This document shows positions 1 to 12,826 of a stretch of DNA of 64,000 bases, in pieces (position 1 is the first letter of the stretch; each line of letters begins with the position of its first letter). Position numbers and translations under genes: made by a program. The notes beneath the pieces are model-generated. The model was not told the origin of the DNA. It ran no database searches and was given only the letters and a program-made list of their open reading frames with translations. This stretch comes from Alphaproteobacteria bacterium (GTDB lineage Bacteria > Pseudomonadota > Alphaproteobacteria > Rhizobiales > Rhizobiaceae): NCBI GenBank assembly GCA_018823835.1, contig JAHJHT010000002.1, positions 62,001 through 126,000 on the forward strand, read 5' to 3'.

Positions 1-1
1 C

Positions 2-1348
2 CAGCTTCGCAGCCAAGGTGTTCTGACGGAGTTCGATCAGACGCAGCGCGGCGCAATAGGCCAGTCGATCGGAAGTGTTCAGTCGCAGCTTGCAGGACAG
101 GCGCCGGTCATCGCGGGCCAGGCGTCCGCCTACGACAACATCCCGGCCGCCTTGCGGGGCAAACGAGATGCCCTCAAGGCTGCGAGCCAGGATGCCTACG
201 AAGGCAGCGTCAACAATCCCGACGTGCTTGTTTCAGGGAGGGCGGTGCAAGCCATTCCCGGCTTCATTCGCGGCAGGCTCAATGCCGATCAGATCCTTAT
301 CGATCCGATGTATCATCAAGGCGCAGCGCGGGCGATGTCGTTCGTCGACAACTATATCGCTCGCATGCCAAAGCCGGGCGGGGACGTGAGCAGCGTCCAG
401 GCTCAGCTTCGCTGGGTCGAGAACCTTCGGGCCGGACTGCGCAAAAACTTCCCGCCGATCGGACAGGACGCTCCCGCTTTGAAGGCGATAAGCGCGGCGA
501 TAGATGACTGGACTGACGAGGTATTCGATCGCGGTCTGGTCAACGCCAGCGACGACGTTCTCACGGAACTGAAAACGGCCCGAGCGAAATGGTCGGAGTA
601 CAAGGGGATGGCTGAACCTCGCTCCAAGCACGGCAGGAAACTCAATCCCCAATATGAGGCTCAGGCCCGCATCCGAAACATAATGGACAAGGATTTCAGT
701 CCAGAGGAGATCGGGCAGTATCTATGGGGCACTTCGGTCGCGTCGCCAAAGAACGCGGCCTTCATGACCGCTCAAGAGCTTCGCCGCCACCTGGGGCCCG
801 ATAGCACTGAATGGGGAGGCATTCGCCAGTCCTTCTGGCTGCGTGCAACGCGGGCCGGAGACGAGGTGCTTAGCCCCGTCCAGATCGCGAAGAACCTTGA
901 GGGTCTTTTGAACGGCAACGGCAAGGGCGTGGCCCAGACCCTCTACAGCGGCACCGAGCTAGAGTTGATGCGCAAGTATGCGTCTGTCATGCGCAACCTG
1001 TCGCCTGCACGGGAAGGTTTCAACAACAGCAATACGGCAAACCGGCTGATGCCCGCGCTCCAGCGTTACGGAATGGCTATAGTTAGCGCCTTGGCGGGCG
1101 GCGGGAGCCTCTACAGCGGCTTGGAGCCTCTGTCGGCTCTCGGTGTCACTGCGGCGACTGGAGGGCTTCTTAAGGGCGCTGGCTCGCTCGCCACTTCGAG
1201 CAGGGCGGCAGCCGCTACCCGCATGCCCGTGCCGATCAATCCAACAGGATCAGGCGGAGCGACCCTCAGGGGTGGCAGCATTCCGCTTGTAATAGGTCAG
1301 GAGAAGAGGCGCCCGTTAGAAATTACTGTTGGGCGTCCAGGTGGCTAG
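2..1348 (+). CDS. Phage-type structural or DNA-ejection-like protein, 5' end outside window
   Basis: The frame is open from the window's first bases to the stop at 1346-1348, so at least 448 residues belong to a longer protein that starts upstream. The TTG at 152 is only an internal codon. The visible part is Gln/Ala-rich and helical at first. A middle block then has conserved-looking segments (WSEYKGM, FSPEEIGQYLWG, TAQELRRHLGP, IRQSFWLR). It ends in a Gly/Ala-rich hydrophobic stretch at about residues 355-400 of the visible part. This pattern resembles large internal-virion or ejection proteins encoded late in podovirus-like prophages, but I recognise no named family. Its stop overlaps the convergent gene by 4 bp. 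The phage assignment is inference from style and context. Confidence 0.7.
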   Translation, partial: QLRSQGVLTEFDQTQRGAIGQSIGSVQSQLAGQAPVIAGQASAYDNIPAALRGKRDALKAASQDAYEGSVNNPDVLVSGRAVQAIPGFIRGRLNADQILIDPMYHQGAARAMSFVDNYIARMPKPGGDVSSVQAQLRWVENLRAGLRKNFPPIGQDAPALKAISAAIDDWTDEVFDRGLVNASDDVLTELKTARAKWSEYKGMAEPRSKHGRKLNPQYEAQARIRNIMDKDFSPEEIGQYLWGTSVASPKNAAFMTAQELRRHLGPDSTEWGGIRQSFWLRATRAGDEVLSPVQIAKNLEGLLNGNGKGVAQTLYSGTELELMRKYASVMRNLSPAREGFNNSNTANRLMPALQRYGMAIVSALAGGGSLYSGLEPLSALGVTAATGGLLKGAGSLATSSRAAAATRMPVPINPTGSGGATLRGGSIPLVIGQEKRRPLEITVGRPGG

Positions 1349-1584
1349 CGTGGCTTGTAGGGCTCGCCTGTCCAGGACCGGACAACCTCATAACCCCAAT
1401 CGCCGAGCGGCAGCGACACGTAGCGGTAGACGAGCGGCAAGACGAAATAGCTGAACAGGGCCATGGCCACGATAAATGTCACCCAGCATAGCGCCTGAAA
1501 AGCCATCCTGCCCAATGGGGAGAAATGCGCCGGCGGGCGGAAATGGTCGTAGCTCATTGCGGGAACATAGCCGCTTTCCCCCAC
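1345..1584 (-). CDS. Small two-helix membrane protein
   Basis: This 79-residue protein has one strong hydrophobic segment at about residues 28-52 (FQALCWVTFIVAMALFSYFV) and a shorter amphipathic stretch after it. The C-terminus is charged. The listed start is GTG at 1584; an ATG at 1557 would give a 70-residue product and neither has a clear Shine-Dalgarno. It is convergent with the phage-like gene (4-bp overlap) and divergent from the gene at 1606. Small membrane proteins at the end of phage late regions are often holin-like or host-modifying, but nothing in the sequence decides this. Function unknown. Confidence 0.5.
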   Translation of the reverse strand: MGESGYVPAMSYDHFRPPAHFSPLGRMAFQALCWVTFIVAMALFSYFVLPLVYRYVSLPLGDWGYEVVRSWTGEPYKPR

Positions 1585-1605
1585 GAAATGAAGCGAGGCA
1601 GACGA

Positions 1606-1986
1606 ATGGACATCAAGGCGAATTTCGCGACCAATACGCGCGCGCGCGAAGCCAGCATACCATCCCTCCAGGATCTAGCCGCTGACATTGCCGCCAGCAT
1701 CCTTCGAGACACAACGAATCCAGACCAAGGCGACGCGTCCTTCGAGAAGATGAGCCATATGATGGTCAACGCCGGCATGGCGCATCCAGCCTCATTGCCA
1801 GTCTTGTTCGAATATGTCGCCACGGCTCACGGGCTACATCAAGCGGCCGATGCAATGCAGGGGGCTGGCCAAGCCGATCAGGCGCGTTCGCTGCACGATC
1901 TGGGCCAACTGTTTGTCCAGTACGCCATCACCGATATCGGGCTCCTTATGTCCGACGCGGCCTGGCGAGACGGAGCCGTCAATTGA
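1606..1986 (+). CDS. Hypothetical alpha-helical protein
   Basis: The product has 126 residues from the ATG at 1606, which I prefer over the in-frame upstream codon at 1525. A GCGAGG sequence lies about 7 bases before it and the upstream codons read as leader. The sequence is Ala-rich and probably all helical, with no signal peptide, membrane segment or recognisable motif. It is rich in Met, His and Gln (MSHMMVNAGMAHPASLP). It precedes the DUF5681 gene by about 30 bp on the same strand and could be cotranscribed with it. No function can be assigned. Confidence 0.55.
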   Translation: MDIKANFATNTRAREASIPSLQDLAADIAASILRDTTNPDQGDASFEKMSHMMVNAGMAHPASLPVLFEYVATAHGLHQAADAMQGAGQADQARSLHDLGQLFVQYAITDIGLLMSDAAWRDGAVN

Positions 1987-2017
1987 CGCCTGACAAAGCA
2001 CGGAAACTTACAGACTT

Positions 2018-2458
2018 ATGACCGCAAAGAACGAACCACCCAAGGACACCCGGTTCAAGCCTGGCCAATCAGGCAATCCGAACGGTCGGCCAGCCGGTTC
2101 ACGCTCCAAGGTCTGCGTCGCTCTCGATGCGCTCGGTGAGGGCGAGGCGGAAGCTATCGTCAAGGCCATGATCGAGAGCGCCAAGGCCGGCGACGGCCAG
2201 GCGGGTCGTACAATTCTTGACCGTGTGTGGCCGCCTAGAAAAGGCGCACGGCTCCAATTCGACCTCCCGGAGGTAACACGGGCTGATGACCTTCCTGGCG
2301 CCATTGCCTCGGTGAACAGGCAGGTCGCTGATGGCGAAATCTCGCCCGATGAGGCATCGCTGATCGTTGGGCTGCTGGACGCGCATCGCCGATCCATCGA
2401 AACAAGCGAACTTGCCGGTCGCCTCGACGCGCTAGAAGCGAGGTTGGCAAAGCGATGA
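2018..2458 (+). CDS. DUF5681 domain-containing protein
   Basis: This 146-residue protein opens with the hallmark of DUF5681 at residues 12-30: FKPGQSGNPNGRPAGSRSK, a basic Gly/Asn/Pro motif probably used for nucleic-acid contact. A helical segment follows (ALDALGEGEAEAIVKAMIESAKAGD) and then an acidic C-terminal part with a predicted coiled coil (ETSELAGRLDALEARLAKR). The family is widespread in alphaproteobacterial mobile and prophage-like regions; its biochemical role is not established. Its stop overlaps the start of the next gene in an ATGA (2455-2458), so the two are probably translationally coupled. Confidence 0.75.
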   Translation: MTAKNEPPKDTRFKPGQSGNPNGRPAGSRSKVCVALDALGEGEAEAIVKAMIESAKAGDGQAGRTILDRVWPPRKGARLQFDLPEVTRADDLPGAIASVNRQVADGEISPDEASLIVGLLDAHRRSIETSELAGRLDALEARLAKR

Positions 2459-2703
2459 CAATCCGAACACGACTTAACCGACTGGAAAGTCAAGCCACTG
2501 GCAGCCCACTCAAAGCGCTAACCGACGAACAGTTACGACTTGCCATCTCCGAACTCACCACCTCGCTAGAACGCGACACGGGACTTAGCAGCGTCGAATT
2601 GGCAGAGAAAATGGCCAAGGGTGAGACGACGTTTGATCTGGATCTAGCCGAGGTCGCTCAACTGGTTGCCGTTCTCATTAATCCTACAACCCGCCCCGTC
2701 TGA
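2455..2703 (+). CDS. Short RLxRLE-type hypothetical protein
   Basis: An 82-residue protein coupled by an ATGA overlap to the DUF5681 gene. It begins MTIRTRLNRLESQ, closely matching the beginning of the next small protein (MANTIANRLDRIESS). This short amphipathic helix may be a docking or multimerisation element. The rest is acidic and helical with no motif I recognise. It lies in a run of three same-strand genes with minimal spacing (2018-2947) that looks like one transcription unit. Confidence 0.6.
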   Translation: MTIRTRLNRLESQATGSPLKALTDEQLRLAISELTTSLERDTGLSSVELAEKMAKGETTFDLDLAEVAQLVAVLINPTTRPV

Positions 2704-2716
2704 AAGGCTTGAAGCC

Positions 2717-2947
2717 ATGGCAAATACAATTGCAAACCGTCTGGATAGGATCGAGAGCAGCTTTCCGGGTCAGCTCGACCAACCGCGTCGCTTCATAAGC
2801 CTGGTCACCAATGCCGATGAATATGCCAAAGCTCTCGAACAGGCCAGGTCCGAAGGCTACGACCCGTATACGGAGGAGGAGGAGGTCCTAATCATTCGGC
2901 TGGTGCCAGGGCGCCCCTGCGTAGAAGCGCAAGCACGAGAAACCTAG
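2717..2947 (+). CDS. Short RLxRIE-type hypothetical protein
   Basis: A 76-residue protein from the ATG at 2717. An earlier in-frame start at 2666 would sit inside the preceding gene, and the residues from MANTIANRLDRIESS onward match the start of the neighbour's product. A tyrosine-rich acidic middle (DEYAKALEQARSEGYDPY, then five Glu) ends with IIRLVPGRP. It follows the previous stop by 13 bp. The shared N-terminal motif suggests duplication or a common partner. Function unknown. Confidence 0.6.
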   Translation: MANTIANRLDRIESSFPGQLDQPRRFISLVTNADEYAKALEQARSEGYDPYTEEEEVLIIRLVPGRPCVEAQARET

Positions 2948-3078
2948 GGTCAATCACAGGTGTCACGCGCCACTTGCTAATTGGGCGCTCGAGTTGATGT
3001 TTATCCCCACGGAACCGTCCAGGAAGCCAGTCGTTACGTCAGACCAATCGCCGTCTCCGAATCCGATGGGCGGAACCC

Positions 3079-3627
3079 ATGATCACTTTAAGCGGCCTTT
3101 TCGACAGTTACGGCGAAGCGAAACTCGCCGTCCATGACCTCGAAGACGCAGGCATCTCGTCCGACGAGATTACACTCCTGTCCAAAAAGGCGGATTCTTC
3201 CGACGAGGGTGACCTGAAAACCGCCGGGGCGGGCGTAGGTGTTGCCATCGGCGGGGTCGGGGGACTTCTGGCGGGCATGGCCGGATTGTCCATTCCAGGG
3301 GTAGGAACTCTGTTTGGGACTGGATGGCTAATTTCGGCTTTCATCGGTGCTGCTGCCGGCGGCGTGGCGGGTGGAATAGTCGCAGCAATGATTGAGTGCG
3401 GAATTAATGAGAATGACGCGCACGTTTTTGCTGAAGGGGTCAATCGAGGCGGCGCGCTAGTTACAATCAAGGTACACGAACACGAGATGGATATCGTCAA
3501 GAGGATCTTGAAACGTCACCATTCCGTCGACCTGGCAAAGCGCAGACGTGAATATGAAGAGGATGGATGGTCTGGCTTCACGTCTAGCGATCCGTGGGAT
3601 GATCGGATTGGGCGTGAGGATGACTAA
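3079..3627 (+). CDS. YflT/general-stress-17M-like protein with glycine-zipper membrane segment
   Basis: This 182-residue protein starts with a YflT-like alpha/beta module, residues 1-35 (ITLSGLFDSYGEAKLAVHDLEDAGISSDEITLL). In the middle (about 50-108) is a long Gly/Ala-rich hydrophobic block with repeated GxxxG spacing, typical of glycine-zipper hairpins that insert into membranes. The segment GGALVTIKVHEHEMDIVKRILKRHHSVDL then completes the fold, as in stress-induced 17M proteins. The C-terminal tail is charged (YEEDGWSGFTSSDPWDD). Relatives are stress- or envelope-associated. Here it is a single gene with about 130 bp upstream and about 90 bp downstream free of genes, inside the accessory region, so it is probably cargo. 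Confidence 0.75.
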   Translation: MITLSGLFDSYGEAKLAVHDLEDAGISSDEITLLSKKADSSDEGDLKTAGAGVGVAIGGVGGLLAGMAGLSIPGVGTLFGTGWLISAFIGAAAGGVAGGIVAAMIECGINENDAHVFAEGVNRGGALVTIKVHEHEMDIVKRILKRHHSVDLAKRRREYEEDGWSGFTSSDPWDDRIGREDD

Positions 3628-3719
3628 GGCGCATCCACAAGCAGATCGGTCTGGATTGTCAGCGGCAACTCGATCCGATTTACTGGGTGTGGTCAGTCTA
3701 ATCATCGAGCAGGTCGAAA

Positions 3720-4613
3720 GTGTCTATTCGCCACTACCTCTTCCCCGACGACGAAGAGCCGCTGCGGCTATCTCGACGATTGGTTGACGGTCTGGTCCAC
3801 GGAAATGATGCGCTCCCACGATACGCTGGAACCCGTCAGAAGGTCGCCTCGGTGTTGCTGGAGAACGATGGTCTGAAGCCACTTCGAATAGTGACCACGC
3901 AAGGGGCATACTTCGACTTTGACGAGACTGGCGATATCCAAGACGGACTGAACCGCGCAACAGCTGAGATCATGGATATCTCGTTCAGTCATCCCCTGCG
4001 TAGGAATGAGACGGTTGTCGAACTCCGCCCCAGGCTTGCAAAGAAGAGAGTTGACGAGGAGCACCGGTGGACGCTGGGCAAAGCCGAGATTGACCGAATT
4101 GTCCGAGATGTTTGGCCAAAGACCAAGTCAGACACCATCAAGTTCGTAACCAGCGCGTCACGAAAACGCCCGCCACTCACGTACGAGGCACGGAGCGCCC
4201 TTGAGGATGCCTCGCAAGATTTCTGGAAGATCGCGCACGCCATTCAAAGGCTCAAAGAGCCCAGCCAGAAGGCTTTTGGCTTCGAGGCGCGAGAACGTTC
4301 GATTTCCGATCCAGACTTTCCTCACCTGTATCGAGCCCTCGCAGATATGTCCGACTGGCAGCTTGAAGTGCAACGGCGCCATCGAACTGGGAAAGGAACC
4401 TGGTACGCGATCGTGGAGGTGACGGTCTGGCAGGATGGCATTGGAGAGTCGGTGGAGCGACACTGCGAACGCTGCCAAGGGCGCAATAAAGCAGTCCTAG
4501 CCGTCAGGAAACTCCTCGCCGAACACGCGTCAAAATTCAGCGAACATGCGACAGTCGAGGGTGAGATCGTGACCGATCTTGAGTGGCAGCAGCGTGCCTA
4601 CACCAAACTCTGA
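3720..4613 (+). CDS. Hypothetical 297-residue protein
   Basis: The gene starts with GTG at 3720 and encodes a soluble, charged protein without signal peptide or membrane segment. The N-terminal half is alpha/beta-like (LPRYAGTRQKVASVLLENDGL). The C-terminal half carries an HCERCQGRNKAVLAVRKLL segment: a CxxC pair with flanking His and basic residues that could bind metal. A preceding beta stretch reads WYAIVEVTVWQDG. I do not recognise the family. It stands alone on its strand; the next gene downstream is convergent. The 92-bp gap before it contains no evident promoter. Confidence 0.6.
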   Translation: MSIRHYLFPDDEEPLRLSRRLVDGLVHGNDALPRYAGTRQKVASVLLENDGLKPLRIVTTQGAYFDFDETGDIQDGLNRATAEIMDISFSHPLRRNETVVELRPRLAKKRVDEEHRWTLGKAEIDRIVRDVWPKTKSDTIKFVTSASRKRPPLTYEARSALEDASQDFWKIAHAIQRLKEPSQKAFGFEARERSISDPDFPHLYRALADMSDWQLEVQRRHRTGKGTWYAIVEVTVWQDGIGESVERHCERCQGRNKAVLAVRKLLAEHASKFSEHATVEGEIVTDLEWQQRAYTKL

Positions 4614-4667
4614 GGTGACATCCTTGGGGCTGGGACCCGTCTGCCGTGCGGTGAACCCTTCACTGCA

Positions 4668-5231
4668 TTAGACCTTGCCTACCACTTGCCACGAGACTTC
4701 GACCTGTGCGCCGGGGACTTCGTGAATAAGCCCCGAGCCCGATTTGCCCGAGCCCCAGTCAATCAAGATTGCGACCCCTACGCGGTAACTGTCCATAAGC
4801 CGCAAGCCCTGTAGAGGTATCTCTCGTGTAGTTCCCCGCCGGGTGGTCAGCAGATTCCCGGTCGCGGTCCATTCGCTCCTCTCTAAATCCACGTCGAGCG
4901 TAAGACGACGTGGGCCGTTTTTCTCTCGGAAATCAACTTTCAAGCGCGGCCCCAGCTTGGCGGGCTCTTTGGAGACGGACATTACTTCGCGACCTATCTT
5001 GAGAATCGTCAATGATTCCTCCAGATAGCATCTGCGAACGCAGTGGCAACCACCCGGGTCGTTTTCTTCTGTCATGAGGAAGATTGCGGAGACGACAGTT
5101 CCGATATCACCAGCAGCGATACCTGACCTAGCGTAATTCTGACGGTTCTTGAACAGTAGATCGCCTTCGCCGTCCACCAAGCACCACTGCAAAACTTTCC
5201 GCAATCTGTAGGCGTCGCAAACCATCACCAC
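4668..5231 (-). CDS. Hypothetical protein, PilZ-sized beta-rich C-terminal half
   Basis: A 187-residue soluble protein. The N-terminal third has a cluster of Cys/His (GGCHCVRRCYLEES, about residues 60-73) that could be a small metal site or disulfides. The C-terminal two thirds alternate short beta strands with charged turns (LTLDVDLERSEWTATGNLL, RVGVAILIDWGSGKSG), suggesting a beta barrel. I considered PilZ, but no RxxxR plus DxSxxG pair is present. It faces the gene at 3720 convergently and ends 60 bp upstream of the HTH gene at 5292, on the same strand. Function unknown. Confidence 0.5.
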   Translation of the reverse strand: MVMVCDAYRLRKVLQWCLVDGEGDLLFKNRQNYARSGIAAGDIGTVVSAIFLMTEENDPGGCHCVRRCYLEESLTILKIGREVMSVSKEPAKLGPRLKVDFREKNGPRRLTLDVDLERSEWTATGNLLTTRRGTTREIPLQGLRLMDSYRVGVAILIDWGSGKSGSGLIHEVPGAQVEVSWQVVGKV

Positions 5232-5291
5232 CCCCTATGGGTCGCCCTGGATGAGCGATACTTGGATTTCAGCCAGGCCGCTAGGCGGACA

Positions 5292-5591
5292 CTACATATC
5301 GTTGTTCTCGATTATGCCGGCCTCGCCGCTGAGCACTTTCGACTGATCCGCTGGCGTTGCCCTTTTCAGTCGAACTCCCGCGCCTCCACCGTTCTCAGGA
5401 ATAAACTCGACACCGGACGATTCATAAGCACGCTTGATTGCCTCAATCGTCACGGGTTGGGGCCCACGCGGTCCGAGTGTCTCCTGCTCTACCCTGCTTA
5501 CTGTGTTTGGTGTGACCTTGGCCATCGCTGCGACCTCTCGAACACCGAGTTTGAGTAGAGCTCTAGCAGCTCGCGCCTGACCTGGGGTCAT
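5292..5591 (-). CDS. Helix-turn-helix transcriptional regulator, XRE/Cro-CI like
   Basis: This 99-residue protein carries a lambda-repressor-like HTH at about residues 3-33 (PGQARAARALLKLGVREVAAMAKVTPNTVSRVEQ spans it). The segment VREVAAMAKVTPNTVSRVE supplies the turn and recognition helix. The tail (IKRAYESSGVEFIPENGGGAGVRL) is the usual rhizobial extension of such short regulators. The ATG at 5591 is preceded by GGAG 7 bp upstream. A 14-bp sequence covering this SD is repeated at 5646-5659 next to the divergent gene's promoter, which fits autoregulation plus control of the gene at 5679. It is probably the accessory element's repressor or local switch. Confidence 0.8.
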   Translation of the reverse strand: MTPGQARAARALLKLGVREVAAMAKVTPNTVSRVEQETLGPRGPQPVTIEAIKRAYESSGVEFIPENGGGAGVRLKRATPADQSKVLSGEAGIIENNDM

Positions 5592-5659
5592 AGATACTCC
5601 GTATATTTTTCAATACATGGTATTGACGATTGCATGTTATCCATATAGATACACCGTAT
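5591..5659. promoter_or_regulatory. Divergent control region with 14-bp direct-repeat operators
   Basis: Two near-identical 14-mers, TAGATACTCCGTAT (5591-5604) and TAGATACACCGTAT (5646-5659), differ at one base and are 55 bp apart, about five helical turns. The first overlaps the SD and start of the HTH gene; the second sits at the expected -10 region of the plus-strand gene at 5679. A TTGACG hexamer at 5623-5628 is a plausible -35. This is the layout of a repressor that acts on both divergent promoters. The operator role is inferred; the repeat itself is seen. Confidence 0.55.
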
Positions 5660-5678
5660 CGATATTTGGAGCAAGCCA

Positions 5679-5966
5679 ATGTTCAATCGCTCGGAAATCA
5701 TGAAAGTCGCCTGGGCGGTATGCCGTACCCACTACACCTTCAATGGCCGGTTCATCTTCCGCCGCGAGCACTTCGCCAAGGCCCTAAAGCAGGCATGGGC
5801 TTCTGCCAAGTTGGCATCTGGCGCCCTCCCCGCCGCCGAGGTCGCCAAGATTGAGCGCGCTTCGGTCATCCGCGACCAGATCGACGCCCTAAAATACAAG
5901 TCATCACGGATGAACGTCGAGCCGACACGCCAGCGCCTCGAAAGAGAATTGATGTTCTTAGCGTGA
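5679..5966 (+). CDS. Hypothetical small basic protein
   Basis: A 95-residue basic protein with GGAG 8 bp before the ATG. It begins MFNRSEIMKVAWAVCRTHYTF and continues with the pattern REHFAKALKQAWASAK, seen in short rhizobial plasmid and phage proteins of unknown role. A helical C-terminal part contains VIRDQIDALKYKSSR. It is divergent from the HTH regulator, whose direct repeat overlaps its presumed promoter, so it is likely the main regulated target. It could be a nucleic-acid-binding early protein, but there is no decisive motif. Confidence 0.6.
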   Translation: MFNRSEIMKVAWAVCRTHYTFNGRFIFRREHFAKALKQAWASAKLASGALPAAEVAKIERASVIRDQIDALKYKSSRMNVEPTRQRLERELMFLA

Positions 5967-6020
5967 GTGCAAAGCTAGCAACCTAGCAAACTACCAACGA
6001 ACCAACGAAGCGAGGATGAT

Positions 6021-6563
6021 ATGATGAATGCCCCCGTTCGGGCCGCCGCCGAAGGCATGCCCACAAAGTCGCCGGAAAGAGATCCGGTTTTTGACATAGC
6101 CGTCCAACTTGGACGAGCCGAACGCAGTCGCGAGGAACTTGATCTGCGCGCGGTTCGTGACAGGCCAAACCGCTACGTTTTCGCGGGACAAGCACAGAAC
6201 GAGCAAGACCGCGTCGACACGCTCCGAGCGGCAATCTCGCAACACAAGGCGACCTCGCTTGAGGGTGCAGCGGTCCAGATTGCCGAGGCTTTGGTCGTTG
6301 CTGATTTCCTCAATGAATGGGTTCGCGAGGATGCGCTAGACGGGAGCGAGGTTTCCCACGCGCAGCGCGACTATCGCGCATTGCAGCGCCTGCTTTTTTC
6401 GGCGCTCGATGTCGTCGAAGCGGCAACGGGACGGAAAATGGCAGACCTCGGCCTGCAGGCATTCCGCAATCCATCGCTGTCCCCCTGGGTTCAGGCTGAC
6501 GACAAGCTCAAGGCAATGAATACAGTCGGCCTCTCTAACGCCCGCTATGAGGAAAGAATATGA
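6021..6563 (+). CDS. Hypothetical protein, first gene of exported-paralog operon
   Basis: A 180-residue soluble, helical protein rich in Arg, Asp and Glu with no signal peptide. GAGGATG lies just before the ATG at 6021, and a second ATG follows immediately at 6024. The N-terminal part (DIAVQLGRAERSREELDLRAVRD) and the C-terminal part (HAQRDYRALQRLLFSALDVVEAATGRKMADLG) look like helical bundles. Its stop overlaps the start of the next gene by ATGA (6560-6563), and that gene overlaps a third in the same way. The three are therefore almost certainly one translationally coupled operon (6021-7596). Confidence 0.6.
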   Translation: MMNAPVRAAAEGMPTKSPERDPVFDIAVQLGRAERSREELDLRAVRDRPNRYVFAGQAQNEQDRVDTLRAAISQHKATSLEGAAVQIAEALVVADFLNEWVREDALDGSEVSHAQRDYRALQRLLFSALDVVEAATGRKMADLGLQAFRNPSLSPWVQADDKLKAMNTVGLSNARYEERI

Positions 6564-7213
6564 ACCGGCGCGCAATGATAGCGGCAACTGCCGCAACAGC
6601 CATCACCGGGCCAGCGCTCGCCGCGAAGCCTTCAACCCAACTCGCAAACCTGATTGCAGTGCACAAGGAGGCCATGCAGAGGTCGGCAGTGGCCGTCGAC
6701 AACTTCGAGAAAGTCGAGACGGCATATTTCGAGGCCAACACCCCCGAGCTAATCGTCGATCTGTCGATTGGCGGAGCCCAGTCGCTGCATGTGATGTACG
6801 ATATGGAGCGAGGCGAAGACGAATGCCGGCAAGCCATCACGCGCCGGTATGACGAAGTAATTGCGCGCTGCGGCCCCCTTTCGAATGTGGCTCCTGCCCT
6901 AGCGCAGGGCGCTCGTGCACAATTCGTCAAGGGCAGGGCCCGCGACATGGCTCGTCTTCGGGCTGCCATCAAAAAAGAAAACGCCAAGCGTGAGCAGTTC
7001 GGCTTTGCTCAGGCCGACCGCGAGAGGGACGCAGCATGGGAATCTGAGACTGCCGCGATGGACGCGCTGCTAGCGTTCAAGCCGTCAACCTTGGCGGAAA
7101 GCGACGCCAAGGGCCGGTATCTCCTCGGATGCGTCGGCGGTCGCTATATGCAACTCTATGACGACCAGGTCGCAATCCTGCTCCGCTCGCTGACATCTGA
7201 GGGGTTATCATGA
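6560..7213 (+). CDS. Exported helical protein, paralog of the next gene
   Basis: The 217-residue product starts MNRRAMIAATAATAITGPALAA: a twin-arginine, short hydrophobic core and an ALAA cleavage site after about residue 22, so it is probably exported through Tat or Sec. The mature part is helical. It shares the N-terminal block LIAVHKEAMQRSAVAVDNFEKVE with the next gene's product (LIETHKEAAARVDALVAFLNDLE), and both start MNRR. Its start overlaps the previous stop and its stop overlaps the next start (ATGA at both ends). A substrate or partner cannot be deduced. Confidence 0.65.
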   Translation: MNRRAMIAATAATAITGPALAAKPSTQLANLIAVHKEAMQRSAVAVDNFEKVETAYFEANTPELIVDLSIGGAQSLHVMYDMERGEDECRQAITRRYDEVIARCGPLSNVAPALAQGARAQFVKGRARDMARLRAAIKKENAKREQFGFAQADRERDAAWESETAAMDALLAFKPSTLAESDAKGRYLLGCVGGRYMQLYDDQVAILLRSLTSEGLS

Positions 7214-7596
7214 ACCGTCGGAGCATTCTGACTGGATCTGCCGCAGCCCTGCTGGCCGCTCCAGCAACCGTCGGGGCCGACGCGGCCGGCATTTCTTCCC
7301 TGATCGAAACACATAAGGAGGCGGCTGCGCGCGTCGATGCGCTGGTCGCCTTCCTGAACGACCTAGAGGAAGTCGACATTACGCCGGCAGGTTTGCAGGA
7401 GGCCGAACTCAGTGCCGCGCACGATGCGGCTTCTGCGGCAATCCTCGCTATCGTCTGCGCCGTCCCTTCATCTGAGGCAGGGGCCAGGGCGAAAGCGGAC
7501 TATCTCATTGGCCTGCTGACAGGCGAGCGACCACACGACGTCTTGGATGACGGACAACTGATTGCATTACTCAACAGCATAGTTGAACAGCACTAA
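7210..7596 (+). CDS. Exported helical protein, shorter paralog
   Basis: A 128-residue product starting MNRRSILTGSAAALLAAPATVGADA, a Tat-like RR motif plus hydrophobic core with likely cleavage near residue 23-25. The mature part has the HKEA signature shared with the preceding protein but is about 90 residues shorter, lacking that protein's middle. It is the last gene of the 6021-7596 operon and is followed by a rho-independent terminator at 7631. Tandem duplication followed by divergence is the simplest reading. Confidence 0.65.
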   Translation: MNRRSILTGSAAALLAAPATVGADAAGISSLIETHKEAAARVDALVAFLNDLEEVDITPAGLQEAELSAAHDAASAAILAIVCAVPSSEAGARAKADYLIGLLTGERPHDVLDDGQLIALLNSIVEQH

Positions 7597-7630
7597 GGAC
7601 AGTGATATCGCTTCGCCTGTTCTCGAAGTT

Positions 7631-7662
7631 GCCCGCCACGGTTCGCCCTGGCGGGCCTTTTT
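7631..7662 (+). terminator. Rho-independent terminator of the exported-paralog operon
   Basis: GCCCGCCA (7631-7638) pairs perfectly with TGGCGGGC (7649-7656) across a 10-base loop, and a CTTTTT tract follows at 7657-7662. It lies 34 bp after the stop of the last gene of the operon, in the right orientation. Confidence 0.85.
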
Positions 7663-7729
7663 CATGCATGGCTTACTATGGAACCATTGTTACCGGAGAC
7701 AGTTTCCCCGCGACGGCTCGGCCCGTAGA

Positions 7730-7777
7730 CAGAAACTGACGAGGGGTACTTGTCCCTTGACCCCTCGTCAGTTTCTG
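7730..7777. repeat. Perfect 18-bp inverted repeat with 12-base loop
   Basis: CAGAAACTGACGAGGGGT (7730-7747) is exactly complementary to 7760-7777, separated by ACTTGTCCCTTG. There is no T tract on either side, so it is not a canonical terminator. It could be a structured RNA, a single-stranded-DNA hairpin site for a recombinase or transposase, or a protein-binding palindrome. It lies between two accessory transcription units. Confidence 0.8.
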
Positions 7778-8045
7778 CACCGAACCGATGATGCCCCAAA
7801 GTCTCTGACTCGCTCAATTGCAATCATGCGGCGATAGAGTCATAGTATTTGCCCGTAAAACGTCGGGCCACTTGCCGAATCGTCAAGTTCAAGTCGCATG
7901 CGCCATTTTGATCTTGGTATGACCACCCTTATTCCCAGTAACTTTCTCACGCCGATGGATATCGGGTAAGGCAGCGAATTCTCACAAACCTCACCCAAGA
8001 ATGCTGCTTCTCTGACCTATCGATGAACGTCATAGGAGAAGCTGC

Positions 8046-8591
8046 ATGCATGGGTCATTTCGAGGTTACCGAGTTCGAGCAATCAGCCCCCGCGATGCCT
8101 GGTCTCAGGCGGAACTAGAACTGCTCAAAACGCACTGGCCAAATGTCAAGATGCTTTGCAGGCTCCTTCCCAGGCGGACAGTGCGTGCCATGCAAGCCAA
8201 GGCAAACCGCTGTGGCCTCACGCCAGAATGGACCAGGCACATGTGGACCGCGCGCGAACACTCGGATCTGAGGCGGATGGTCGCCATGGGGTGCACACGC
8301 CGGCAGATAGCCATGCACTTGGGACTCTCCGTTCAACAAGTCGCCGCAAGGATGCAATACACAGGGATCAAGATGCCGAAGCGGAGACCCGTGCCGTGCG
8401 GTGACGAACGTATCGATTCCATCCGGCAGCGGGCATTCGATCTCAATATGAGTATGACTGAGTTTGACCGTTCACTTGGATACACCAGACGGTTCTCCAA
8501 CTGCTTCAAAGGCAAGCAGATGTCTCTCTCTTCGATTGGACGTGCCGTAGTGGCTCTGGGCGGCAAGTTGCAAATCGAATGGGAAGACTGA
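8046..8591 (+). CDS. DNA-binding protein with two Myb/SANT-like repeats and a C-terminal HTH-like region
   Basis: A 181-residue basic protein with GGAG about 8 bp before its ATG. Residues 19-58 (WSQAELELLKTHWPNV...) and 67-108 (WTAREHSDLRRMVAMG...) are two tandem three-helix modules, each opening with a Trp and ending in a recognition-like helix (RAMQAKANRCGL; QQVAARMQYTGI). This is the Myb/SANT pattern seen in phage and GcrA-like DNA-binding proteins. Residues 123-181 resemble a short Cro/XRE unit (FSNCFKGKQMSLSSIGRAVVALGGKLQIEW). It is monocistronic, flanked on both sides by perfect hairpins. Probably a regulator of the accessory element; the target is unknown. Confidence 0.7.
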   Translation: MHGSFRGYRVRAISPRDAWSQAELELLKTHWPNVKMLCRLLPRRTVRAMQAKANRCGLTPEWTRHMWTAREHSDLRRMVAMGCTRRQIAMHLGLSVQQVAARMQYTGIKMPKRRPVPCGDERIDSIRQRAFDLNMSMTEFDRSLGYTRRFSNCFKGKQMSLSSIGRAVVALGGKLQIEWED

Positions 8592-8662
8592 GAGATTTAC
8601 CGATGATTTACCGGCCGAGTGCACTCTGCCTGAGCGGACCCGTCAACAGTACCGCAGCAGGC

Positions 8663-8715
8663 AACAGGCCCGTCGCTCTACTTCTGACTTCAACTGTAGA
8701 GCGACGGGCACTGTT
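8663..8715. repeat. Long imperfect hairpin with 13-bp perfect core
   Basis: GCCCGTCGCTCTA (8668-8680) pairs with TAGAGCGACGGGC (8697-8709) around a 16-base loop. Beyond one bulged A (8710), AACAG (8663-8667) pairs with CTGTT (8711-8715), giving an 18-bp stem. It has no T tract. It lies about 75 bp after the Myb-like gene and could end that transcript, protect its 3' end, or be an independent structured RNA. Confidence 0.7.
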
Positions 8716-8796
8716 CTGCGAAATCTACGGAACCAACCCCAAGCCTACGAATTGGTGAACCAGCGCCGCTGGGAGGCACGCCCATGGGTGCTGGTA

Positions 8797-8833
8797 GAGA
8801 GCCGAGTGCGTCCAGGAGGAGTGCTCGGCTCTC
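8797..8833 (-). terminator. Hairpin downstream of the minus-strand gene, possible terminator
   Basis: GAGAGCCGAG (8797-8806) pairs perfectly with CTCGGCTCTC (8824-8833), loop 17 bases. It starts 5 bp after the stop of the minus-strand gene at 8839-9033, where a terminator is expected, but no U tract follows on that strand. It may equally end transcripts entering from the left. Confidence 0.45.
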
Positions 8834-8838
8834 CCAAT

Positions 8839-9033
8839 TCACGCTAGGAAGCGCCTCAGTCTCTCCCTCAATGTTTCCTCGTCGGTGACACCGCGCCTAA
8901 ACAGGTTCATTACACTCAAAGCTACATTGTCACGCTCGTTAGCCGTGACGCCGTGGTCTATGCAGTAGTCGTCGAGAACCCTCTGCAGCATTGCCAACTC
9001 TTCGGGGTTGACCTCGTTCCTGAACCGCTCCAT
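8839..9033 (-). CDS. Small conserved-looking hypothetical protein
   Basis: A 64-residue helical protein (MERFRNEVNPEELAMLQRVLDDYC...) with GGAG about 9 bp before the ATG. The pattern NPEELAxLQRVLDDYC-DHG followed by Ser/Arg-rich helices and a basic end (LRERLRRFLA) recurs in short rhizobial proteins of unknown role, often near mobile regions. It is the only minus-strand gene between 5.6 and 10.1 kb of the window. No motif gives a function. Confidence 0.65.
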   Translation of the reverse strand: MERFRNEVNPEELAMLQRVLDDYCIDHGVTANERDNVALSVMNLFRRGVTDEETLRERLRRFLA

Positions 9034-9127
9034 GGCCCAATCTCCATCTGAAGCAGCTAATTTGCTCGCATTGACGCCGCCGTGCGAGTCATAGATTCAT
9101 GCCCTTTGGAGAAGGGTTACACGCAGA

Positions 9128-9373
9128 ATGACCGGACTAGCTTGGACCATTGCGGAACTGATAGCCGAGAAAATAACCGTCACCGTTTATTGCCAGGCGG
9201 ACGGCTGCGGCTACAACCAGGAGCTTGACCTCAACCAACTGGCCGCAGAGTTCGGCCCGGATGCACGGGCCATGGCAGCGGACTTGGCGCCCAAACTGAC
9301 GTGCTGGATGTGCGGCTCGAAGGATATCAGCCTAATCTACTCGCCGAAAACACGGACGCCATCGAGGGAATAA
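9128..9373 (+). CDS. Small zinc-ribbon-like protein
   Basis: An 81-residue protein with two cysteine pairs: CQADGC (residues 22-27) and CWMC (about 59-62), set 30 residues apart, the arrangement of a four-Cys zinc ribbon. Between them lies a helical linker (LNQLAAEFGPDARAMAADLAPKL). Proteins of this design occur in Rhizobiales accessory regions and are assumed to bind nucleic acid or protein. It is a separate unit; the next gene begins 66 bp later with its own strong SD. Confidence 0.65.
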   Translation: MTGLAWTIAELIAEKITVTVYCQADGCGYNQELDLNQLAAEFGPDARAMAADLAPKLTCWMCGSKDISLIYSPKTRTPSRE

Positions 9374-9439
9374 CCTTCCTTCGTCTCGACTACGGACGAT
9401 ATCCAGCATAAAATCGATCTTGTTGCAAAGGAGGTTTGG

Positions 9440-9985
9440 ATGCGACTAGCTACTCTCGCTTTGTTTCCGACGATTCTATTTGCCCTTAACGCTTCAGCTC
9501 AGGCCACTGACTATCCCAGCTTCACAATAATTGGGCTGGTCGGCGGTACGGAATACCTTTTCCAGTCCGACGCCACGGGGGTCGCAAAAGCAAAACCGCC
9601 TGGAAACGACTTCGCATCGTTTCACGCACTATCAGTAGACTCAAACTGGAGTCAGCTTCATTTCAAATACTCCTGCGTCTACAGCAAAGCTCCCTCAACC
9701 AACGTAACTTTGATTGAAACGCCCACGTACGAAGAAGGTACTTCGTGCCCTAAGGACGGGGACTCTGGAAACAGCCATTTTGTCAGAGCAATCAAAATTA
9801 CCCTAGAGGGGGTCGAAGCCCCCAATTACATCATGAGCGCCCAATGCTGGCTGGGTTTTTTTCAGCAGCCTGGCGTGCATGAAACGCTTACGGCGGTGGG
9901 GTCTGGCGAGTGGTGTGGTCGTCAATTGGGTGGGGCCGACAAGGAGTGGATCAGCTGGATAGAGGTGCGGCTACGGAAGAGGTAA
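9440..9985 (+). CDS. Secreted or periplasmic cysteine-containing protein
   Basis: The gene has a near-perfect SD (AAAGGAGG) before the ATG. The 181-residue product starts with a classical signal peptide (LATLALFPTILFALNASA, cleavage after about residue 21). The mature part is beta-rich and aromatic, with four cysteines (YSCVYS, GTSCPKDG, SAQCWLG, EWCGRQ) that could form two disulfides in the periplasm. No known family is recognised. As the last island gene before the junction, followed by a stem plus T tract, it looks like exported cargo. Confidence 0.65.
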   Translation: MRLATLALFPTILFALNASAQATDYPSFTIIGLVGGTEYLFQSDATGVAKAKPPGNDFASFHALSVDSNWSQLHFKYSCVYSKAPSTNVTLIETPTYEEGTSCPKDGDSGNSHFVRAIKITLEGVEAPNYIMSAQCWLGFFQQPGVHETLTAVGSGEWCGRQLGGADKEWISWIEVRLRKR

Positions 9986-10046
9986 TCGCCCAATGCTAGC
10001 TCGGCCACACGGCGCGCTACGTGAGATCATGTCAGAAAAATCCCGC

Positions 10047-10157
10047 CAGTCTCTACTGAAATGTTGCTATCGCGTTGCTACGCTGGGACTTTTCGAGAAG
10101 AGACTGTAGTTTTTTTATAATATTATCAGCGGTTTATAAGACGCAGCAAAAAGGCGC
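10047..10157. other. Right end of the accessory region, candidate attachment/junction zone
   Basis: CAGTCTCT (10047-10054) is inverted at 10099-10106, followed by seven T (10110-10116), which could terminate the gene at 9440. Between them GTTGCTA occurs twice, 11 bp apart (10063-10069, 10074-10080), resembling helically phased recombinase arm sites. From 10110 to about 10135 the DNA is very AT-rich. The glycosyltransferase homology starts between here and 10157. The exact crossover point cannot be fixed from one side. Confidence 0.5.
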
Positions 10158-11707
10158 ATCCATCCCTTGAACCAGCGGGTCCGCTGCGGCAGCCAGGTGT
10201 CGAAGTTGTCAGGTGCCGGCTCGACGGTCGGACAGGCGATGGTCTGCGTGCGGTAGCTGAAGCGGGCGAGGCGGACGCCGAGATCGGCATCCTCGGTGAC
10301 GTTGAACGGGTCCCAGCCGCCGATACGGTCGAGAACCGAGCGGCGGAAATGGTTCGAGGTGCCGCCGAGCGGCAGCAGAAGCCGGCGGACCGACAGCCAC
10401 GGCAGCAGGGCGCGAAACAGCGAGGCATACTCGAACCCGAACATGCGGGCGACGGGGCCCGCCCCCCAATTGGCGATCTCGAGCGGTGCCTGGACGCATC
10501 CGACATCCGGCCCCGCCGCCTCGAAGGCCTGAAACGCGGCGATGAGTTGCGAGGGGTCGGGACAGTCCTCGGCGTCGTAGAGGGCGACGTAGTTGCCGCT
10601 TGCCAGCGGCAGCGCATAGCAAAGTGCCTTCGGCTTGGTGCGCGGTCCGCCGACCGGGACGCGGACGATCTCGAAATGGCGCGGAAGATCCAGCGACCCT
10701 AACGCGGCAAGCGTGGCCGCGTCATCGGCCTCGCAGACAAGCTTGATGTCGAGGCGGTCCCGCGGCCAGTCGAGCGCCTTGAGCGCGACAACGAGCCCCG
10801 GCACGCTCTCGGCCTCGTCGTATAGCGCGACGAGCACGGAATAGGTCGGCAGGCGCGCCCGTGAAACGGCGGAGATCGGAGCGGTAGCATGCGTCTGCGG
10901 CGAGCAGAGTGCGGCAAACCGCAGCCCGACGCAGGCAAAGAAGAAGAACGACAGGAAAATATGCAGCGCCGTCCAGGCTTCGAAAGGCGCCAGCAGGGTG
11001 GCCGCCGGCACCGCAACGAGGACTGCGCCGACGACGAAGCCCTGCCAGGCATTGGCGACGATGCGCGCAGAGAACTGCGGAAACCTGTCGAAGAGGTCTC
11101 CGGTCGCATGCTGCGCCAGCAGCGGCCGCATGCGCACGGAAAGCGCGCGCCTGAGTTCCTTTGGCAAGACAATCCTGAGACGACCCCTGATCCTCGGATA
11201 GCGCTCGACGAGACGGCGCAGGTGGCCAAGATCGAGTCGGTCCGGCGCAACGAGGTAGGTCGTCGAACCATCGGGCTCTTCCTGCTTGACGGGAAAATGC
11301 CAGGAGGCGCGGCTCAGCAGCGACAGGGCTGCCGCTTCGTTGACGATCAGCCTGTCGGGGTCGATGCGCTCCGTGAAGCCAAGCCCCAGCTCAGCCGCCA
11401 GCGCACGGTAGAAGGCGCCCTCCCCGACAAGCCCGGAGTCGATCAGTTCGAACTGGAAGCTGTGGCCGTTGCGGCGAGCGAGCGCGGCGATCCAGGAGGC
11501 CTGATCGATGGACAGCGGCAGACGCTGCAGCAAGGGGAGCCAGTCCAGCAGCTCGGGGAACAACTGGCAGGCGAGGCGCTGACGCCCGTCGATGCGCCGT
11601 CTGTCGCTGGAGGGGCCAGTAGCGGGCGGGTGCGCCTGCAACCGGTCGCTGTGATGAGCCAAACGTGCAAATGACGGCGGCTCAGACAGCCCCACGGCCG
11701 ACCCCAC
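10115..11707 (-). CDS. Membrane GT2 glycosyltransferase, C-terminally truncated at island junction
   Basis: The gene starts GTG at 11707 and encodes 530 residues. The N-terminal cytosolic region (about 40-200) has a MshEN-like look (LGLGFTERIDPDRL). Two membrane helices follow (about 222-242 and 247-268), then a GT-A domain from about 288. The nucleotide/metal and catalytic motifs are present: DAED 378-381, TEDAD 471-475, QRTRW 508-512. Family members (BcsA-like rhizobial GT2 proteins) continue past QRTRWFKGWM with about 100-150 residues carrying more membrane helices. Here the frame ends 18 residues later in unrelated AASYKPLIIL inside AT-rich DNA. This indicates disruption by the adjacent accessory element. 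It is probably non-functional or altered in polysaccharide synthesis. Confidence 0.85.
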   Translation of the reverse strand: MGSAVGLSEPPSFARLAHHSDRLQAHPPATGPSSDRRRIDGRQRLACQLFPELLDWLPLLQRLPLSIDQASWIAALARRNGHSFQFELIDSGLVGEGAFYRALAAELGLGFTERIDPDRLIVNEAAALSLLSRASWHFPVKQEEPDGSTTYLVAPDRLDLGHLRRLVERYPRIRGRLRIVLPKELRRALSVRMRPLLAQHATGDLFDRFPQFSARIVANAWQGFVVGAVLVAVPAATLLAPFEAWTALHIFLSFFFFACVGLRFAALCSPQTHATAPISAVSRARLPTYSVLVALYDEAESVPGLVVALKALDWPRDRLDIKLVCEADDAATLAALGSLDLPRHFEIVRVPVGGPRTKPKALCYALPLASGNYVALYDAEDCPDPSQLIAAFQAFEAAGPDVGCVQAPLEIANWGAGPVARMFGFEYASLFRALLPWLSVRRLLLPLGGTSNHFRRSVLDRIGGWDPFNVTEDADLGVRLARFSYRTQTIACPTVEPAPDNFDTWLPQRTRWFKGWMRLFAASYKPLIIL

Positions 11708-11986: not shown

Positions 11987-12826
11987 ATGAGATTTCGATC
12001 GATCGTTCTGCTAATGACGGCGCTGGCGTTTGGCACAACCGCCGCGCAAGCGGCCGAGCCACTGGCGCCCATGTTCTGGGACAGCAAGGAGCGGCTTCCA
12101 CGCCCCGATCTCAGCGGACTGAAGCGCCTGCGCTTTCTGACGACGACCGATTTTCCGCCCTTCAACTTTCTCGACGGTGCCGGACGGCTTTCCGGCTTCC
12201 ACATCGACCTGGCGCGCGAGATCTGCACCGAACTCGACATCTCGGAAAAATGCGAAGTCCAGGTTATGCCATGGGCGGGGCTGGAGCAGGCGCTGATCAG
12301 CGGCCGCGGCGAGGCGATCATCGCCGGCATCGCGGTGACCGAGGAATCGCGCTCGAAATACGCCTTCTCGCGGCCCTACCTGCAGTTTCCGGCGCGCTTC
12401 GCCATGCTGAAGACCAAGGCGCTTTCGGAGCCGATCTACGACAAGGTTCAGGGCGAGCGCATCGGCGTGCTAGCCGGCTCGGGCCATGAGCAGATGCTGC
12501 GCGACTATTTTCCCGGCGTGCAGGTGGTGACCTATACCAGGCAGGACTGGCTGCAGGCCGACCTGAAGGCCGGCAAGATCGCCGGCACGTTCGGCGACGG
12601 CATGCGGCTCGCCTTCTGGCTGGCCGGGTCTGACGCCGGCGGCTGCTGTCGCTTTGTTGGCGGGCCCTACCTGGCGCCCGAGTATCTCGGCACCGGACTG
12701 GCGATCGCCACGGAAATCGACGATCCGCTGCTCACCGCCGCCTTCGACTATGCGCTGCAGCAGATTGCCGTAAAGGGCCGGTTCGCCGAGCTGTACCTGC
12801 GCTATTTCCCGGTCAGCTTCTACTGA
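11987..12826 (+). CDS. Family 3 extracellular solute-binding protein
   Basis: A 279-residue periplasmic protein with a signal peptide (VLLMTALAFGTTAAQA, cleavage after about residue 22). The SBP_bac_3 fold is clear: a first strand RFLTTTDFPPFNFLDGAGRLSGFHIDLAREICTELD (split here only for reading), the central ISGRGEAIIAGIAVTEESRSKYAFSRPY block, and the hinge segment ERIGVLAGSGHEQML. The family binds polar amino acids or related small molecules for ABC importers or sensor domains. No permease or ATPase gene is adjacent, so it is an orphan. It is convergent with the hydroxylase gene and overlaps it by 14 bp. Confidence 0.85.
   Translation: MRFRSIVLLMTALAFGTTAAQAAEPLAPMFWDSKERLPRPDLSGLKRLRFLTTTDFPPFNFLDGAGRLSGFHIDLAREICTELDISEKCEVQVMPWAGLEQALISGRGEAIIAGIAVTEESRSKYAFSRPYLQFPARFAMLKTKALSEPIYDKVQGERIGVLAGSGHEQMLRDYFPGVQVVTYTRQDWLQADLKAGKIAGTFGDGMRLAFWLAGSDAGGCCRFVGGPYLAPEYLGTGLAIATEIDDPLLTAAFDYALQQIAVKGRFAELYLRYFPVSFY

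Follow-up and report, generated by a model that had tools for sequence, protein, structure and literature searches.

The locus examined here raises the question of why a chromosomal glycosyltransferase gene stops short at the edge of a region with phage-like genes, and where its missing 3′ end has gone. The window, i.e. the whole 64,000-nucleotide stretch of DNA analyzed, corresponds to C3:62001-126000, C3 being a 1.96-Mb contig of the 15-contig, 4.65-Mb draft genome G000; positions given alone are window positions. A sequence-only reading had proposed that a prophage-like element inserted into this gene. The features around the junction, compared with a same-genus genome (G001), are the following:

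11987-12826, plus strand: gene for a substrate-binding-like protein, right-hand neighbor of the GT2 gene and in the same place in G001
11707-10115, minus strand: 5′ part of a GT2 membrane glycosyltransferase gene, GTG start, 530 codons, the last 13 foreign
10156-10174 (C3:72156-72174): attR core, a 19-bp exact direct repeat, GCATCCATCCCTTGAACCA
10107-10155: AT-rich stretch from arm site to core, source of the foreign 13-residue tail
10059-10082, plus strand: putative arm-type site AAATGTTGCTATCGCGTTGCTACG with a doubled GTTGCTA, inside the interval 10047-10165 marked earlier

The product of the 11707-10115 frame has matches to the Pfam GT2 families. Its alignment with proteins of the same family ends at about residue 520-526, and the open frames of most of these proteins have 587-832 codons, with 697 for the intact homologue of G001, in agreement with the proposed truncation. 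Past ...QRTRWFKGWM the frame reads RLFAASYKPLIIL and then a stop, giving 13 foreign residues and not the 17 first counted. The switch itself had been placed after QRTRW at about 10157, which is right to within a base and corresponds to the edge of the repeat. As had been remarked, the DNA becomes AT-rich at this point: GC content is about 0.67 inside the GT2 gene and falls to about 0.53-0.55 immediately left of the junction. The foreign tail is AT-rich because the DNA between the arm motif and the core is AT-rich, as it also is in most other elements located at this GT2 site; this stretch could possibly be a DNA-bending site. To the right of the junction, the neighbor at 11987-12826 is conserved in G001 and ordinary chromosome therefore resumes there, as originally described.

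The missing 3′ part had been predicted at the far end of the element, outside the window. It was indeed found at C3:52700-53224, 19 kb from the 5′ part and beyond the window edge, using the C-terminal part of the G001 protein as query (match at C3:52727-53221, 70% identical). The ppk2 gene lies directly beyond this severed piece at attL. In G001, which provides the empty-site comparison that had been suggested, the GT2 gene is uninterrupted and the order is substrate-binding-like gene, GT2, ppk2, with the same neighbors as in G000. Both halves keep the G001 gene order and therefore represent a single gene interrupted by an insert. Joining of the flanks in silico at one repeat copy produces a single 689-codon open frame, the product of which shares 64% identity with that of the intact G001 gene along 677 residues. 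Apart from the severed piece, the only other GT2 C-terminus found in the G000 genome was that of a distant paralogue on C9, 30% identical. Rescue of the gene by the element is ruled out, as the break comes with no replacement: no GT2-like C-terminus lies inside the element.

It might be argued that the 530-residue protein is simply a natural short GT2 form, since its frame is open and QRTRW is kept. However, the severed C-terminal piece exists and is in frame once the flanks are joined, the tails following WFKGW are unrelated between genera, and no element-free relative with the same 530-residue protein and tail was seen. The sequence-only reading had itself named an absent second GT2 fragment, or such a relative, as evidence against an insertion, and neither was encountered. 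The short form, whose probability we judge to be close to nil, was rejected given that the joined flanks restore the 689-codon frame.

The arrangement is almost certainly that of a 19.0-kb tyrosine-integrase element inserted at the WFKGWM codons and splitting the GT2 gene. Its components are:

C3:53170-72174: integrated element, 19,005 bp including both repeat copies
1-10174: right 10.2 kb of the element, the left 8.8 kb with the integrase lying outside the window
C3:53170-53188: attL core, the same GCATCCATCCCTTGAACCA, 8.8 kb left of the window start
C3:53209-54618, plus strand: tyrosine integrase gene, 469 codons, start 40 bp into the left end

On the GT2 gene strand the repeat reads TGGTTCAAGGGATGGATGC and encodes W F K G W M, the first W being the last residue of the catalytic QRTRW motif. 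This site is uninterrupted in G001 and in 22 other genes. The arm motif at 10059-10082 has a twin 124 bp inside attL, and in the six elements with both ends resolved the doubled motif AAATGTTGCTATnnnGTTGCTACG occupies matching positions, beginning 124-128 bp inside the left end and finishing 90-95 bp short of the right end; the term arm-type refers to sequence position, not to binding. The integrase matches PHROG 1 (5.8e-48) and Pfam PF00589 (1.2e-14). Its real start probably lies further inside the frame, because relatives align only from about codon 41-48. The element thus has the hallmarks of an integrative element, with a recombinase at one end, a repeat matching the uninterrupted site and putative arm sites on both sides. 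Both an integrase upstream of position 1 and a direct repeat within 10047-10165 had been anticipated; the exact 19-bp repeat overlaps that interval and flanks the element. Among phage records, relatives of the integrase were found in two only, at 25-27% identity, and none were found in plasmids or viral contigs. A tRNA attachment site was discarded: neither the surroundings of the edge nor the first 78 kb of C3 contain a tRNA.

In the scenario that we propose, the attP of the element would have recombined, via the tyrosine integrase, with an attB inside the GT2 membrane glycosyltransferase gene, the crossover occurring within the WFKGWM codons, which complete and follow QRTRW. As the element brings no replacement 3′ end, the gene was left split. 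The attR side retains 530 codons, which comprise the catalytic domain, QRTRW included, and the 13 foreign residues; the attL side, adjoining ppk2, retains about 160 codons, among them those for the hydrophobic segments of the C-terminus. The integrase belongs to a clade whose members mostly use the GT2 site, in many Hyphomicrobiales genera. In a draft genome of 15 contigs, a misjoin placing unrelated DNA in the gene has to be considered. But both junctions lie inside one 1.96-Mb contig and show the exact repeats as well as the arm motifs. Independent assemblies have this arrangement too, large contigs of G116 and G045 among them, and an assembly artefact is extremely improbable.

The recurrence of the split was addressed through two surveys. 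Ten of 398 genomes of the family (one genome per species, several of them drafts), G000 included, carry the integrase at E <= 1e-40. In G079, G045, G116, G158, G098, G238 and G278 the integrases are 57-73% identical to that of G000, their 5′ end faces the GT2 C-terminal piece, and the GT2 gene is cut at the same codons. The second survey, of 398 genomes drawn from the order, added G731 and G494 from another family, whose integrases (45-47% identical) adjoin a GT2 C-terminal piece reading LKGWMQT or LKCWMQT. Among the matches listed, the split site occurs in at least eight genera besides the source genus (G079; G045; G116/G187; G158; G098/G238; G278; G230; G731/G494), with only one end resolved on the integrase's contig in G098, G238, G278, G731 and G494. 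Where the halves lie on the same contig they are separated by 38.8 kb (G079), 25.6 kb (G045), 20.4 kb (G116), 22.1 kb (G158) and 62.0 kb (G230), with exact junction repeats of 18-26 bp in each case. Since the tails differ from one genus to another, no element rebuilds the GT2 protein. These comparisons support the view that GT2 insertion is a repeated, site-specific event and not a single accident and, judged from the genomes surveyed, mobile DNA has landed in the GT2 gene repeatedly.

Two decayed-looking members, G230 with a partial integrase and G187 with none, count against this interpretation. In the wider clade, the integrases of G335 (52%) and G629 (50%) do not adjoin this GT2 gene and the site is therefore not universal. 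The G187 locus (L077) is a 3.6-kb remnant located in the GT2 gene and flanked by 28-bp repeats; it has the right arm motif only, and its right end is nearly the same as that of G116, from the same genus. In G230 (L091-L094), several proteins of the 62-kb insert are 65-92% identical to those of another element of the same genome near 3.99 Mb, suggesting that the insert is a composite or two elements.

What kind of element this is can be approached through its gene content, which in the window includes:

2-1348, plus strand: 3′ part of a 708-codon gene (whole gene C3:61222-63348), PHROG 5880, phage injection-protein-like
2018-2458, plus strand: gene for a DUF5681 protein
3079-3627, plus strand: gene with a YflT-type domain (PF11181)
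5292-5591, minus strand: gene for a small helix-turn-helix protein, Pfam match under the curated cut-off
8046-8591, plus strand: D5-like transcriptional-regulator-type gene, PHROG 323
9440-9985, plus strand: last sizeable open reading frame before attR, no family match

Further matches in the element are to a DnaD-like replication protein, a tail-collar protein and DUF3800. The 708-codon gene is conserved in other elements of about 20 kb and its product occurs in 8 of the 398 genomes. The structural model of this protein has a mean pLDDT of 52, and its fold matches, which are suggestive of an injection protein, are proteins of uncultured phages, one of them so named. The search for a virus encoding it returned no match in phage records for a 448-residue part and none in viral contigs for the whole protein. 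PADLOC gave no defense-gene match for any of the six G000 element proteins tested. Between 6560 and 7596 the element also encodes small proteins in tandem whose starts resemble twin-arginine signals (MNRRAMIAATAATAITGPALA, MNRRSILTGSAAALLAAPA). Such proteins are an unusual cargo for phage-type DNA, and other elements of about 20 kb carry them as well.

Terminase, portal and capsid, the trio that would mark a complete temperate prophage, had no PHROG or Pfam match among the scanned G000 element proteins nor among those scanned from G116, although such searches may miss divergent head genes. The insertion claimed by the sequence-only reading stands, but the term prophage-like needs refinement, and the element is better described as satellite-like or as a remnant. 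For comparison, satellites are about 7-20 kb in size, with genes for integration, regulation and replication but none for virion structure; the 19.0-kb element has integrase, regulator and replication-type genes, and tail-collar and injection-like genes are also present, head genes not having been found.

Comparison with other elements bears on these two descriptions. G116 and G045 share with the G000 element the replication, 469-codon and 708-codon genes (31-69% identical), and G158 shares its early part. Four GT2-site elements (19.0-25.6 kb) carry parts of one ordered gene set, and the same block is found elsewhere in five elements (G176, G076, G225, G199 and G230), close to an integrase whose identity with that of G000 is only about 25%. 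That this head-less block recurs with exchanged integrases suggests a satellite-like family, alternatively a shared remnant of a phage lineage. The element might then belong to a family of phage satellites of about 20 kb which need a helper phage and in which gene integrity is reversible and regulated, the synthase being off until excision turns it on. In keeping with this, the GT2 halves are still open frames in G000 and in most other split cases, SPbeta in spsM is a studied reversible case in a polysaccharide gene (PMC4191935), and loss of integrity without replacement by attP has been discussed as regulated gene integrity (PMC10111431). However, the missing head genes may have diverged beyond recognition by PHROG and Pfam, the intact halves may only reflect recent insertion, and G079 has at the same site a 38.8-kb island of other content, showing that the same integrase type can carry unrelated islands. 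We therefore put this forward as a tentative reading with a rather low probability. The broader proposition, that a Hyphomicrobiales integrase clade is specialized on the QxxRW codons of one membrane polysaccharide synthase, is carried in part by a new family of head-less phage satellites of about 20 kb and turns a surface polysaccharide off in a reversible manner, is likewise one which we would consider doubtful.

Alternatively, the element may be a decayed prophage that has lost its head and packaging genes, leaving the split gene as a permanent pseudogene. The tail-collar, injection-like and DnaD-like replication genes are all phage-type, the element is small for a tailed temperate phage, and the 708-codon protein is absent from the phage records and viral contigs searched. 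Independent decay, however, is not expected to yield the same head-less set at a similar size in different genera and with different integrases. We give this explanation a real, if somewhat less than even, chance.

Whichever its nature, the choice of site can be considered from the conservation of the target. In keeping with the general idea that integrases settle on conserved DNA, the 19-bp core is the 28th most conserved of 2073 windows along 23 intact GT2 genes, with a mean majority-base frequency of 0.865 against 0.555 for all windows. Tryptophan and methionine have one codon each, and WFKGWM includes two of the former and one of the latter. A plausible explanation is that the peptide encoded at the target hardly varies and includes one-codon tryptophans, so that the DNA, its codons being little degenerate, would be constant across hosts.

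The retained 5′ part includes the catalytic motif and lacks about 160 residues with several hydrophobic segments. By sequence, the best solved relatives are cellulose synthase catalytic subunits, in which helices past the QRTRW-type motif contribute to the membrane channel. Loss of the C-terminal part therefore probably leaves the synthase inactive as long as the element is present; precise excision would restore it.

The nearest precedents are SPbeta in spsM (PMC4191935) and helper-embedded satellites (PMC10111431). In Bacillus subtilis, SPbeta is likewise a phage-type element which splits a polysaccharide-synthesis gene, rebuilt on excision, but gene, site and host are different, and it is an active prophage for which developmental excision has been shown, whereas excision is here predicted from sequence (PMC4191935). 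The helper-embedded PICIs are inserted in late genes of prophages and form the PICI family, in contrast to an element in a chromosomal GT2 gene of Hyphomicrobiales that is not assigned to that family (PMC10111431). The same work states that attP usually supplies a replacement sequence and that most exceptions are explicable as regulated gene integrity (PMC10111431). Sa3int phages of Staphylococcus aureus also inactivate a host gene, hlb, by mid-gene integration that is reversible at excision, but they are complete phages with another target gene and host (PMC6597384). Integrative elements of Mesorhizobium and Sinorhizobium, from the same bacterial order, have tyrosine integrases and att repeats as well, but, apart from guaA, radC and dusA, the sites reported for these rhizobial elements are mostly tRNA genes, with no mention of a glycosyltransferase (PMC8627217, PMC11476347). 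No earlier report of a GT2 attachment site was found in the literature searched, which was mostly non-subscription. The GT2 site adds a clean and recurrent case to the few protein-coding attachment sites which integration breaks and does not rebuild, and the codons concerned, those of a catalytic motif, are little degenerate. Should excision be regulated, the element would serve as a genetic switch for a polymer of the bacterial surface, with possible effects on phage entry and on contact with surfaces or hosts, and surface sugars would then change on mobilization of the element.

The same GT2 gene is also interrupted in other ways. Inserts of 4.1-4.6 kb with 8-10-bp duplications occur in four genera at a second hot spot, the NHFR codons of GGTSNHFR, a region which is the most DNA-conserved stretch of the gene. 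These loci (L069, L070, L071, L074 and L075, in G074, G233, G171, G117 and G163, respectively) carry IS1595-family transposases, tested with Pfam in three of them, and cargo which includes a DNA methyltransferase in two. In G044 (L072) a GT2 C-terminal piece starts at the residue of the IS1595 insertions, near a contig edge. In G013 (L079, L080) the two parts of the GT2 gene lie at the ends of two contigs, the break coming just after TEDADLGIRL and ahead of QRTRW. The adjoining sequence is foreign on either side and the two ends have no repeat in common, so that this is either a third type of interruption or a break in the assembly. Finally, the GT2 gene of G303 (L076) appears to be frameshifted at about residue 548, just past the WFKGW site, with no insert.
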